This document shows positions 2,814 to 7,673 of a stretch of 29,910 nt of DNA, piece by piece. The notes beneath the pieces were generated by a model. The model had not been told where the DNA came from, did no database searches, and saw only the letters and a program-made list of their open reading frames with translations. Both the position numbers and the translations under genes were made by a program. The stretch comes from a virus: positions 1 to 29,910 of the IMG/VR virus record IMGVR_UViG_3300033998_000366, one strand, 5' to 3'. Numbering within the stretch: position 1 is the stretch's first letter; every line of letters begins with the position of its first letter.

Positions 2814-4547
2814 ATGCCACGTCCCAAGAATTTGAGCAAGCCCAAGCTCCAGCCCGGCTATGTTCCGCCTTCCAAGAGAAAACCGAAGGCTGCTATATAC
2901 GTTCGTGTAAGTACGCATTATCAGGTGGATCGAGACTCTCTTCCCTTCCAGCGCCAAGAACTTGAAAACTATAGCCGACATGTCCTGAATATAACCGACT
3001 GGGAAATATTTGAGGACGCCGGTTATTCCGCAAAGAATACCGACCGGCCGAAATACCAGGAGATGATGGCCCGCATCCGCAAGGGCGAGTTCACTCATCT
3101 TCTGGTCTGGAAGTTGGACCGAATTAGCCGCAACCTGCGGGACTTCACCGAGCTTTGGGATGAACTTAAGGAATATGGGGTTACCTTTGTCTCCAAAATG
3201 GAGCAATTTGATACCTCGACCGCTATGGGCGAGGCCATGCTCCGAATTATCCTCGTGTTTGCTGAACTGGAGAGGAAACTTACGGCCGAGAGGGTCTACT
3301 CCATCATGTTGTCCCGCGCCCAGAAAGCCCTTTGGAACGGCGCCCCTGTTGCCCTGGGCTACGATTGGGACCCCGAGAATGAAACCATTAAAATCAACCC
3401 CGAGGAAGCTGAACTGGTTCATCTTATTTTCGATCTGTACGAAGAAAAGCAATCCGCCCTTGCCGTTGCCGAGTGGCTCCATGAAAACGGGAAAAAAACG
3501 AAACGGGGCGGCACCTGGGGTTCCAAAAGCGTTATCGATATACTTCGCAACCCGATTTACATAGGCGTCTACCGCTGGAATTACCGCCAGTCCGGCCGGG
3601 GGGAACTTAAGCCCGAGGATGAGGTTATCACCGTGGAAAACGCTTTGCCGGCTATTATCTCCCGGGAACAATGGGAGCGGGTGCAAAAGCTCCTCGACGG
3701 TAATTACAAAGGCCGAAGGGACCAGCAACGCCGGGCCAAGCATCTTCATATCTTGTCGGGCCTGATCAGGTGCGGTTACTGCGGCAAGACCTATATATCC
3801 GCCCGCAACACCAAGCCTCATAAGCACAATTATCACCCCTCTTATTACCGGTGCGGCACCTATATCCGTAACCGGCAATGCCGGAATAAGACGGTGAGCG
3901 GGCTGTATATCGAGCCTTTTGTCCTGGAATACCTCCGCGCCTATGTTAAGGCGGCCAGGTCCGCCACATCCCCCGCATCTTTCCAAACGGAGTTGCTTAA
4001 GGCCTTTGGCCGCGAAGAAATCGAGTATATTGACCTGCCCATTATGGATGCCGGGCTCACGAGTATCCTGGGCGGCATGGCCGAGGCTGTATCCGTTCAG
4101 CCCCGGCCCATCATGAACGAGAAGCTGGAGTCCTTAAAAAAGCAGAAACAAAAAATAGAGCGGGCCCTTGCCCGCCTCGATGATGCCTATTTTTTCCCGG
4201 AAGGCCACAATGCCATTTCCAAGTCGGAATACCTTGTTAAGAAGGCTGAATTCCAGCAGCGCCTGAGCAAGGTCGACAGTGAAATAGCGGCCCTGGCCTC
4301 TAAGTACTCCTCTACCATGTCCGTAGATATAGAAATGTTTTCCCGCTTCCTTCTGGTCCACAACCTCTATACCGCGGATAATATCCGCGATGTCTTACCT
4401 GCCCTAGATAAGCAGGTCGTGCAGGATTTCTTGCAGCAGGTCATTAGCTTTATAGAAGTGGCCGACGGAAGGGTTACCAAAATCGCTTTCAACTCGCCTG
4501 ACGGGGAAGTAATTCACCGGTTTGTCTACCGTGAAATGCCTTCATAA
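2814..4547 (+). CDS. Large serine recombinase (phage integrase)
   Basis: A 577-residue large serine integrase. The resolvase domain spans about residues 25-165: IYVRVST holds nucleophile S33 and R31, and WKLDRISRN holds the active-site arginines R103 and R106. The Recombinase domain (about 175-300) follows, then a zinc ribbon with C320, C323, C347 and C356 (RCGYCG and YRCGTY/RQCRN). A coiled coil at about 430-485 is of the kind that controls integration versus excision. The ATG at 2814 follows GAGGTGA. These enzymes recombine attP with attB without host factors, and excision needs a directionality factor, which I do not see here. The gene converges on the late operon, with the lysis genes on the other side of a short gap. 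Confidence 0.93.
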   Translation: MPRPKNLSKPKLQPGYVPPSKRKPKAAIYVRVSTHYQVDRDSLPFQRQELENYSRHVLNITDWEIFEDAGYSAKNTDRPKYQEMMARIRKGEFTHLLVWKLDRISRNLRDFTELWDELKEYGVTFVSKMEQFDTSTAMGEAMLRIILVFAELERKLTAERVYSIMLSRAQKALWNGAPVALGYDWDPENETIKINPEEAELVHLIFDLYEEKQSALAVAEWLHENGKKTKRGGTWGSKSVIDILRNPIYIGVYRWNYRQSGRGELKPEDEVITVENALPAIISREQWERVQKLLDGNYKGRRDQQRRAKHLHILSGLIRCGYCGKTYISARNTKPHKHNYHPSYYRCGTYIRNRQCRNKTVSGLYIEPFVLEYLRAYVKAARSATSPASFQTELLKAFGREEIEYIDLPIMDAGLTSILGGMAEAVSVQPRPIMNEKLESLKKQKQKIERALARLDDAYFFPEGHNAISKSEYLVKKAEFQQRLSKVDSEIAALASKYSSTMSVDIEMFSRFLLVHNLYTADNIRDVLPALDKQVVQDFLQQVISFIEVADGRVTKIAFNSPDGEVIHRFVYREMPS

Positions 4548-4743
4548 AAGCGGCTTTCTTAGTGTCTCACTTTTACCATCTGACAACCGAAGGTAAATGT
4601 GATATACTTTCGCCGACGATCATCTTTATCGCTCATTAATGTCCATCCCTTCCGATTTTTAAGACTCACAACTATTATACCGTACGGTCCGGCCCAAAAC
4701 AACAAAGGGAGGGGCCGGCCTACCCGCGCCCCTCCCTTACGTG
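4548..4743. other. Convergent intergenic region; candidate attP location
   Basis: This 196-bp non-coding gap lies between the integrase stop and the holin stop. Besides the late terminator it holds an imperfect inverted repeat (CGAAGGTA at 4588-4595 against TACTTTCG at 4605-4612) and a perfect 10-bp palindrome ACCGTACGGT at 4679-4688. Large serine integrases use attP sites of roughly 50 bp with imperfect dyads, usually next to the integrase gene, so attP may lie here. Small ORFs crossing it have no coding character. The attP assignment is inference. Confidence 0.4.
4705..4738 (-). terminator. Late operon terminator
   Basis: A perfect 11-bp GC-rich stem pairs AAGGGAGGGGC (4705-4715) with GCCCCTCCCTT (4728-4738) around a 12-nt loop. 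On the minus strand it is followed by TTTGTTGTTTTG. It lies six bases beyond the holin stop and marks the end of the leftward structural and lysis operon. Confidence 0.85.
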
Positions 4744-5842: not shown

Positions 5843-6196
5843 TTAAATTGTGGGTTTATTAGAAGCGCCAGTCTGCCCTTCTCCGCCGCCCTCGTCCCTC
5901 GGGGTATAAACCTGTTGTGGCGGAGGCGAGTAATAGCCATCATAAGGGTATGGTGGCTGGTACGGCGAAACCTGACCCCGCCGCCCCAGCGTAGGCCAGC
6001 CGATCCGCTCAATGGCCCGCTTCGCAATGGCCGCGATGATTGGGTATCCCAGGACCGTAAAAAAATCAACCTGGTTTGTGGAGATGTCCCCCGCCAGGGC
6101 TATTTTCACCCCCACAAACACGTACAGCCCCAGGGACGCAAGAACCGCCAGGTCCTCTATGGTGAACCCGTCCGGATCATTCCAAAAGCCCCTCAT
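5843..6196 (-). CDS. Small membrane protein of the lysis cassette
   Basis: A protein of about 117 residues, read from ATG 6196, where GGTGAGG gives a ribosome binding site (GTG 6205 is possible). It has two hydrophobic stretches (roughly LAVLASLGLYVFVGVKIALAG and FFTVLGYPIIAAIAKRAI) separated by a short polar turn, then a Pro/Tyr/Gln-rich tail. I do not recognise the family. The helical-hairpin shape and its position between a BhlA-like holin and the endolysin suggest a second holin, antiholin or other lysis accessory. Confidence 0.65.
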   Translation of the reverse strand: MRGFWNDPDGFTIEDLAVLASLGLYVFVGVKIALAGDISTNQVDFFTVLGYPIIAAIAKRAIERIGWPTLGRRGQVSPYQPPYPYDGYYSPPPQQVYTPRDEGGGEGQTGASNKPTI

Positions 6197-6201
6197 GGCC
6201 C

Positions 6202-6423
6202 TCACCGCCTGGCCCGCTCGAGCAGCTCGTCTATCTTAGCCTCCTGCCGGGCTAACGCCACCTGGATCAAGGTAGTTAACTGCTCTAAGGCCTTGGTGTT
6301 GTTTTGGACCACCTCGGCTAACTCCTGGTCACTCTTTTGCTTGAACCACTGGGCTACCAAGAAAATCAAGCCTGCCACCGTGAAAAATGCAATGCCATAT
6401 TGCGCGAGATCAGGCCCGGGCAT
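6202..6423 (-). CDS. BhlA/UviB-like holin
   Basis: A 73-residue protein with one N-terminal transmembrane helix (IAFFTVAGLIFLVAQWF) followed by an amphipathic, probably coiled-coil tail rich in Gln, Glu and Lys, ending ELLERARR. This single-span-plus-coil layout is that of BhlA/UviB-type holin-like proteins. ATG 6423 is chosen because AAGGGGTG lies about seven bases upstream; a GTG at 6432 would leave no spacing. It overlaps the start region of the next gene and comes directly after the receptor-binding protein. Confidence 0.7.
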   Translation of the reverse strand: MPGPDLAQYGIAFFTVAGLIFLVAQWFKQKSDQELAEVVQNNTKALEQLTTLIQVALARQEAKIDELLERARR

Positions 6424-6469
6424 ATGCCTCACCCCTTGGCCAGGTTATCATCGTTTTGCTCACCGGCAT
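6410..6469 (-). CDS. Possible 19-codon leader ORF
   Basis: ATG 6469 is preceded by an excellent ribosome binding site (GAGGAGGGG, minus strand 6478-6470) and opens MPVSKTMITWPRGEAYARA before a TGA inside the holin gene. It overlaps the holin start by 14 bases in another frame, so it could couple or tune holin translation. No known family; it may simply be chance downstream of a strong SD. Confidence 0.3.
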   Translation of the reverse strand: MPVSKTMITWPRGEAYARA

Positions 6470-6531
6470 CCCCTCCTCGTACAAAAACAAGATCGTCAAA
6501 CAACTTCTTCCGCCGTGTTCAAGAACTGGGA

Positions 6532-6551
6532 GGGCGGGCTATCGCCCGCCC
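6532..6551. other. DGR-type hairpin/cruciform downstream of the variable region
   Basis: A perfect 8-bp GC-only stem with a 4-nt loop begins 28 bp past the stop of the receptor-binding gene. In the sense (minus) orientation it reads GGGCGGGC, loop GATA, GCCCGCCC. Neither strand has a following U-run, so it is not an intrinsic terminator. DGR target genes are known to need a hairpin/cruciform of this size with a GRNA-type tetraloop just 3' of the variable repeat, and GATA fits that pattern. Confidence 0.65.
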
Positions 6552-6578
6552 AACAGATTTCAGGTTTCAGAACCCAGA

Positions 6579-7673
6579 TTACACGGGAATAAAAGCCGCG
6601 CGGAAGCCGATGCTGCCGACCGAGTCCGAGCGGGCGTCGTGCAGGTTCAGGGCGAAGACCCCCGCATGGGAACCAACGCCCCAACCCCCGCCCCGGATCG
6701 GGAGGCGCTCGCCGTAGTTACGCACCCAGAGGCCGTCGCCACCTAGACCGGTACCTGGGGGCTGGATAGCCAGATGTTTTAACATGGCCGGGGGCGTAAA
6801 ACCGGTTTCGGCCGTGAGGCTCTCAAAGGTCATGCTGCTCTGCCCGTAATAGGCATCCGTCGTCGGGTCGGTGGTATACATCGGGTTAGTCAGGTCCGGG
6901 CTCAGGATGGGGTCGCCGCCTACATCATGATCGGTCTGGGTGCTATCGCCCGCGGTGGTGTTATCGAAATAGGCCCCGGTACCCACCCAGCCGGTCACAT
7001 CGTGGCTATTGTTCTGGGTCTCGAAATTGTTTTGGGCTACCCCGCCGGCACCATGCACGTAAATCTTGCCGTCATGGAGTTTCAGGCCGTCAATCCACTC
7101 CCAGACGTTGCCATTCAGGTCGGCAATGCCAAAGGGGGTGTTGTCATGGTACCAGGATGCGGGCCCGGAACCAGTAGCCGTCCGGCCATCTTTATATACG
7201 CCTCCATCCAAGTATCGATAGACCACCTTGCCCCGCTCATAGCTGGCGCCTATGTCGGCCCCGTAATTGTTATTGCCCCTGGGAAGAAACCCATTTTTCC
7301 AGCACCACAGGGCAATGGCCGCCCATTCTGCATTGGTCATCAAGTGCCAGCCCTTACCCTTGGCAGTGCAGTAGCCCCTGGCCTGGTCAAAGTTCACATA
7401 GACCTTGGGGTCCTGCATCGGCAGGGAGAGGGCGCGGCCGCCCACCACTACATTCTGGAACTTGGAGATAAAGATTTCGTCGATTATCCGGCCGTTTACT
7501 ATAAACGCCGGATGAGGATCTGCCGGCCAGGTTGGGTCAATGTCGCTTAACTTGAAACGCGGGACCACTACCATAATCGAGGGGTAACCCAGGTCGTCAT
7601 AAAGCACTGTATTCTTCCCGCCAGAAGCAGCTTCTACAGCCTGCCGGTAGGTGTCTTTAATTGAAAAGATCAT
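6579..7673 (-). CDS. DGR-type variable tail protein (FGE-sulfatase/C-type lectin fold), receptor-binding protein
   Basis: A 364-residue protein. The first 60 residues are of a tail-attachment kind. From about residue 60 it has the formylglycine-generating-enzyme-like/C-type lectin fold used by DGR variable proteins: FISKFQNVVV, GKGWHLMTNAEWAAIALW, the NNNYGAD region and FGIADLNGNVWEWIDG. The C-terminus is the typical variable region, RGGGWGVGSHAGVFALNL (327-344) followed by HDARSDSVGSIGFRAAF (345-361). True FGE catalysis is not expected. It is likely the distal adhesin of the tail, as Mtd is in BPP-1. Its ATG overlaps the upstream stop (ATGA), and the lysis cassette follows. A hairpin fitting DGR targets lies just downstream. 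Confidence 0.88.
   Translation of the reverse strand: MIFSIKDTYRQAVEAASGGKNTVLYDDLGYPSIMVVVPRFKLSDIDPTWPADPHPAFIVNGRIIDEIFISKFQNVVVGGRALSLPMQDPKVYVNFDQARGYCTAKGKGWHLMTNAEWAAIALWCWKNGFLPRGNNNYGADIGASYERGKVVYRYLDGGVYKDGRTATGSGPASWYHDNTPFGIADLNGNVWEWIDGLKLHDGKIYVHGAGGVAQNNFETQNNSHDVTGWVGTGAYFDNTTAGDSTQTDHDVGGDPILSPDLTNPMYTTDPTTDAYYGQSSMTFESLTAETGFTPPAMLKHLAIQPPGTGLGGDGLWVRNYGERLPIRGGGWGVGSHAGVFALNLHDARSDSVGSIGFRAAFIPV
6582..6695 (-). repeat. Putative DGR variable repeat (VR)
   Basis: This is the 3' end of the receptor-binding gene, residues 327-364. Positions expected to vary (330, 332, 333, 336, 345, 346, 350, 352, 353, 354) are encoded GGT, GGC, GTT, CAT, CAC, GAC, GAC, GTC, GGC and AGC. All end in T or C, as codons derived from AAY in a template by adenine mutagenesis should. 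Intervening invariant residues (W331, G338-L344, R348, IGFRAAF) match conserved DGR positions. The 3' end is GC-rich (CGCGCGGC), as expected for an initiation-of-mutagenic-homology segment. No second copy (template repeat) was found in the window. Confidence 0.7.

Follow-up and report, generated by a model that had tools for sequence, protein, structure and literature searches.

The variable protein gene and its target site

The window, i.e., the whole stretch of 29,910 nt analyzed here (virus record IMGVR_UViG_3300033998_000366), carries at the end of its tail and baseplate genes a gene of the DGR variable protein type together with the features of a DGR target:

6579..7673, minus strand (7673→6579): variable protein (VP) gene, 364 aa, FGE-type C-type-lectin fold, TaqVP-like, probable tail adhesin
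6593..6695, minus strand: variable repeat (VR); its 103 nt align to the template repeat (TR) found in relatives, with changes at 13/21 template adenines and at 0/82 other bases
6532..6551, minus strand: GC-rich hairpin GGGCGGGC-GATA-GCCCGCCC; z -4.7; 8-bp stem, GRNA loop; kept in relatives

The original prediction of an FGE/C-type-lectin-like protein was borne out, including its ending and codons; the ORF lies on the minus strand, and the C-terminus with the stop reads RGGGWGVGSHAGVFALNLHDARSDSVGSIGFRAAFIPV*. The ORF matched PF03781 (FGE-sulfatase, 2.4e-8), phrog_2889 (4e-132) and, over its full length, the variable protein TaqVP (PDB 5VF4; phmmer 1.8e-74). No function is assigned to phrog_2889. 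The AlphaFold2 model of VP had a pLDDT of 88, and TaqVP was its top PDB match in Foldseek (5VF4, E 2.7e-39, TM 0.89); the structural matches to Treponema TvpA and BPP-1 Mtd were far weaker. VP therefore shares both fold and full-length similarity with a solved DGR variable protein, and TaqVP itself is the variable protein of a prophage DGR with avd. Judging by the homology to TaqVP and Mtd and by the position of the gene at the end of the tail/baseplate genes, VP would bind a host receptor. RefSeq lists the phage DGR-type variable proteins H4, H6, H8, and H10 under the name "SUMF1/EgtB/PvdO family nonheme iron enzyme," a label that probably misleads. Elsewhere in the window, two overlapping small ORFs at 845-1356 resemble by eye a HicB/HicA toxin-antitoxin pair and lie near repressor and M78 peptidase genes.

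DGR target hairpins or cruciforms follow the VR and have a GC-rich stem of 7-10 bp and a 4-nt GRNA loop (PMC3240598). The hairpin found here after the VR, with an 8-bp GC stem and a GATA loop, agrees with this description, and many members of the VP family carry hairpins with GATA or GACA loops. At 41 nt, the hairpin-VR spacing is slightly larger than the 4-34 bp seen in a small set of DGRs (PMC3240598); the same spacing occurs in the closest DGR-bearing relatives (L002-L005). The sequence at the 3' end of the VR (homing sequence/IMH) is identical in the window and in DGR-bearing relatives.

Adenine signature and loss of the cassette

A search for relatives of the window gave 80 IMG/VR loci. 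RT (reverse transcriptase) is present in 64 of the surveyed relatives (a few records are duplicates). The closest distinct loci were L002-L005 (83-87% aa). The L003-L005 set, which includes a phage of Desulfovirgula thermocuniculi DSM 16036, shows the gene order variable protein–hairpin–avd–TR–RT. RT (PF00078) was detected in all four of L002-L005. Avd gave tblastn matches in all four as well, and bAvd (PF22296) was matched in L003 and L004 (5.6e-35 in L004). About 565 nt downstream, each of the four has a second copy of the VR, the TR, in which the variable codons are mostly AAT, AAC, and GAC.

Compared with the TR of L003, i.e., the template of a relative and not the phage's own, the VR of the window has all 13 of its 13 mismatches at the 21 adenines of that TR and none at the 82 other bases (P=1.9e-11). 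It lies at the 3' end of the target gene and differs from the L003 TR, taken as template, at adenines only. The own VR/TR pairs of five close relatives behave in the same manner, with 59/103 A sites and 0/412 non-A sites changed. The ten NNY codons singled out by the original prediction (330, 332, 333, 336, 345, 346, 350, 352, 353, 354) are exactly the codons differing from the L003 TR, in which the corresponding codons are AAT, AAC, or GAC. Between the window and L002-L005, the VR codons show 0.297 nonsynonymous vs 0.117 synonymous differences per codon pair; in the rest of the VP gene of the same five loci the pattern is reversed (0.135 vs 0.360). These comparisons, with 13/13 mismatches at L003 TR adenines, strongly support the original proposal that a DGR wrote the C-terminus of VP by adenine mutagenesis, using a template rich in AAY codons.

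The TRs of L004, L005, L126, and L133 differ in their AAY codons (e.g., AAT vs CAA, AGC, AGT, or GGT at one position), and the set of diversified residues therefore evolves between relatives. In L119, the best second VR copy was found ~6.8 kb from VP with mostly non-adenine differences (5/15 at A), perhaps marking a second target gene.

The components of a complete DGR, i.e., TR, DGR-clade RT, and Avd, were all absent from the window. The near-repeat of the VR by which the original prediction was to be checked was not found in the window, where the best other match to the VR was 51/117, at the background level. No TR copy above background was present in the window or in L001, a second record of this phage described below, and tblastn with the Avd of L004 gave no match in either. 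No RVT_1 match was obtained in the window record, where only 27 C-terminal codons of RT are left; the record is a 29.9-kb fragment, and the remainder of the phage might conceivably hold a second TR/RT. The place of the loss is marked by three features:

6512..6513: deletion junction; left = L004 position 9200, right = L004 position 10902; 1-nt (G) overlap
6429..6512, minus strand: remnant of the DGR reverse transcriptase (RT stub), comprising its final 27 codons and the stop, RKKLFDDLVFVRGGDAGEQNDDNLAKG*; agrees with the end of the L004 RT at 84/84 nt
6202..6432, minus strand: small gene following the lost DGR, with a start region that overlaps the stop codon of RT

According to blastn, positions 6504-7673 of the window correspond to L004 9209-8001 and positions 6193-6513 to L004 11221-10901 (96%). 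Measured against L004, exactly 1,701 bp (avd, TR, and most of RT) are missing from the window at 6513|6512. The alignments to L003 and L005 likewise cover either side of the break, and both sides are common to all three; in L002, the contig of which stops inside RT, the VP side alone is comparable. A direct repeat of ~10 nt at the junction, suggested by the blastn overlap, was rejected because the letter-by-letter comparison leaves 1 nt. The RT stub and the two-sided alignment to relatives indicate that the cassette was once present and was lost at this spot. The tail of RT may have been kept to preserve the start of the gene at 6202-6432. Across the junction, the identity to L004 goes up from about 87% to 96%. 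Two relatives may therefore have recombined here, instead of a single genome losing the segment; either way, the result would not differ.

These data also bear on the reading of VP as an FGE/EgtB/PvdO-type enzyme, or as an ordinary adhesin that was never under a DGR. Relatives do carry the nonheme iron enzyme name in RefSeq, and the PF03781 match fits it; however, the RT stub lies directly downstream of VP, the differences from a relative's TR are confined to adenines, the reversed nonsynonymous/synonymous pattern is confined to the VR, and the nearest solved structure is a DGR variable protein. Taken together, the RT stub and the adenine bias refute this reading, and we give it practically no credence.

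The sequences of some RT-less relatives suggest additional losses, in part with signs that these happened independently. The VP region of L049 (8941-9377) shares ~85% DNA identity with L044 as far as the stop codon, after which unrelated genes follow at once; its VR equals the TR of L044 at 75/75 non-adenine bases and differs at adenines only, and no RT was found in its 39-kb record. L009 diverges from L008 just beyond the VP stop. In L006 (9142-10692), avd is intact, and a short minus-strand ORF and a LAGLIDADG-type ORF replace TR and most of RT, of which a 51-aa tail is left. The notion that all RT-less relatives carry RT stubs was rejected: stubs were found in the window, L001, and L006 only, and L017 was dismissed as a carrier because its RT is cut by the contig end. 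As for other relatives devoid of RT and avd, with no close partner by which to date a loss, some may never have had a DGR.

Integrated and attP forms of the phage

A 28-mer spanning the junction was searched in IMG/VR, and L001 was the sole other record containing it. L001 is identical to the window over 11,097 nt except for one difference at window position 4583, at the att site, where the following features are found:

2814..4547, plus strand: large serine integrase (Resolvase, Recombinase, Zn_ribbon_recom), adjoining attP
4559..4636, minus strand: phage-borne MiaB N-terminal piece, MSDKDDRRRKYITFTFGCQM..., fused in L001 to host miaB
4584..4596: att core TTACCTTCGGTTG, common to attP (window), attB (host miaB in genome G049), and the prophage end in L001

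Past position 4583, L001 runs into host miaB and farther on into mutS; the window runs to its serine integrase. Genome G049 of the host species matches the 3,493-nt flank of L001 at 100%, and its miaB is uninterrupted there and contains the core TTACCTTCGGTTG. L001 therefore represents one end of a prophage, and attP lies within the window. The arrangement of these sequences suggests that the phage carrying the deletion probably still excises. The two records may originate from the same site or project. Through the MiaB piece (window 4559-4636; L001:10804-12387), integration gives host miaB a replacement N-terminus; the fusion in L001 reads ITFTFGCQM and then host NEHDSE, and miaB stays open.

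The two contexts bear as well on whether the junction could be an assembly artefact, the real phage having an intact DGR that the assembler skipped through the VR/TR repeat or because of hypervariability. VR/TR repeats do break assemblies, and L126, L128, and L002 end near VP or within the cassette. Here, by contrast, the junction joins the VP 3' region to the RT 3' end, with 1 nt in common, rather than VR to TR copies, and it recurs identically in L001, a separate contig in which the phage is integrated in miaB. As the same junction occurs in two genomic contexts, we regard an artefact as very improbable.

The host is a bacterium related to the heat-loving Desulfovirgula. The prophage was not present in G049, a draft genome, and G049 is thus not the actual lysogen. 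Among the RVT_1 matches in G049, four in number, all were of the group II intron type; the same search detects a DGR RT in Desulfovirgula genome G031.

A probably frozen adhesin and its counterparts

In our opinion, VP very probably belonged as target to a phage DGR that has since lost its machinery, with the adhesin frozen as last written. Relatives have VP-hairpin-avd-TR-RT at this place, both ends of which are retained in the window, and the VR bears the mark of adenine-specific copying from an AAY-rich template. About 1.7 kb is missing, with avd, TR, and the whole of RT except its final 27 codons; the loss would have occurred by an illegitimate join with a 1-nt overlap. It is presumably recent, given that the VR has no non-adenine difference and the RT stub no difference at all. 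With RT, Avd, and template gone, VP most likely keeps the form in which it was last written. The phage would bind with one fixed lectin tip, and switching through mutagenic homing would require a DGR acting in trans. Host-range switching by way of this gene, as inferred in the original prediction, finds no support for this phage: avd, TR, and nearly all of RT are deleted, and no DGR RT was found in the host-species genome G049.

Action in trans is the main alternative and is mechanistically possible, by analogy with BPP-1. The orphan VR would then still be diversified by the DGR of a co-resident or superinfecting L003-like relative, and switching would continue. The hairpin, GRNA loop included, is intact, as is the homing sequence that ends the VR on its 3' side, and BPP-1 phage devoid of avd, TR, and RT gets rewritten from donor plasmids (PMC3240598). 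The VR also equals the L003 TR at every non-adenine base, with the rest of VP ~20% divergent; recent loss, however, accounts equally well for this perfect match. Against rewriting in trans, the VR is identical in L001 and the window, G049 is devoid of a DGR RT, and there is no evidence of co-residence. We consider it unlikely for this phage. It is equally doubtful as a general rule, under which DGR-less phages would keep a functional VR and hairpin to be diversified by the DGRs of related co-infecting or co-resident phages; if it were true, the DGR would be a shared service and the loss of one's own would be cheap.

The preferred reading, a DGR lost and an adhesin left fixed, has parallels in known systems. 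One of the closest is the Thermus aquaticus prophage DGR (5VF4, PMC6328139): TaqVP is homologous over the full length (40-41% identity, TM 0.89), has the FGE-type C-type-lectin fold with the VR at the extreme C-terminus, and is followed by avd and TR, which is the ancestral order here. In contrast to that DGR, the window phage has avd, TR, and RT deleted. The DGR of Vibrio phage VHML (orf35-orf37, AY133112) has a VP of the same family (42.7% identity) with the RT gene downstream; unlike the window phage, VHML has an annotated RT.

Another close system is the laboratory phage BPP-1 deltaATR, deleted from avd position 48 to brt position 882 (PMC3240598). The extent is nearly the same, with VP, VR, and target hairpin retained and avd-TR-RT gone. 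In the window phage, the deletion is natural, affects another phage and VP subfamily, and is seen in prophage and attP forms. The window phage is thus a natural counterpart of BPP-1ΔATR, very probably with a recently decommissioned DGR and a frozen adhesin.

Incomplete or decommissioned phage DGRs were already known. RT genes broken by insertions or point mutations have been described (PMC3521204), and incomplete cassettes with truncated RT occur in 66/91 genomes of crAss-like phages (PMC7290462). The latter resemble our case in the natural loss of RT and TR, the truncated RT genes, and the retention of part of the target region; they differ in having a lineage 3 DGR without avd and another target protein, and in many of those genomes the target gene itself is truncated, whereas it is intact in the window. 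New here is a clean, letter-resolved deletion with VP intact, in both prophage and attP forms, in the TaqVP/VHML family.

VR codons by themselves are no proof of an active DGR. What was a general suspicion of adhesin hypervariation becomes a concrete event, in which a phage lineage dispensed with its own mutagenic machinery and yet continues to occur in integrated and attP forms. Set beside the intact L003-L005, the window phage offers a natural comparison, with and without the element, for studying when it no longer pays to carry a DGR.
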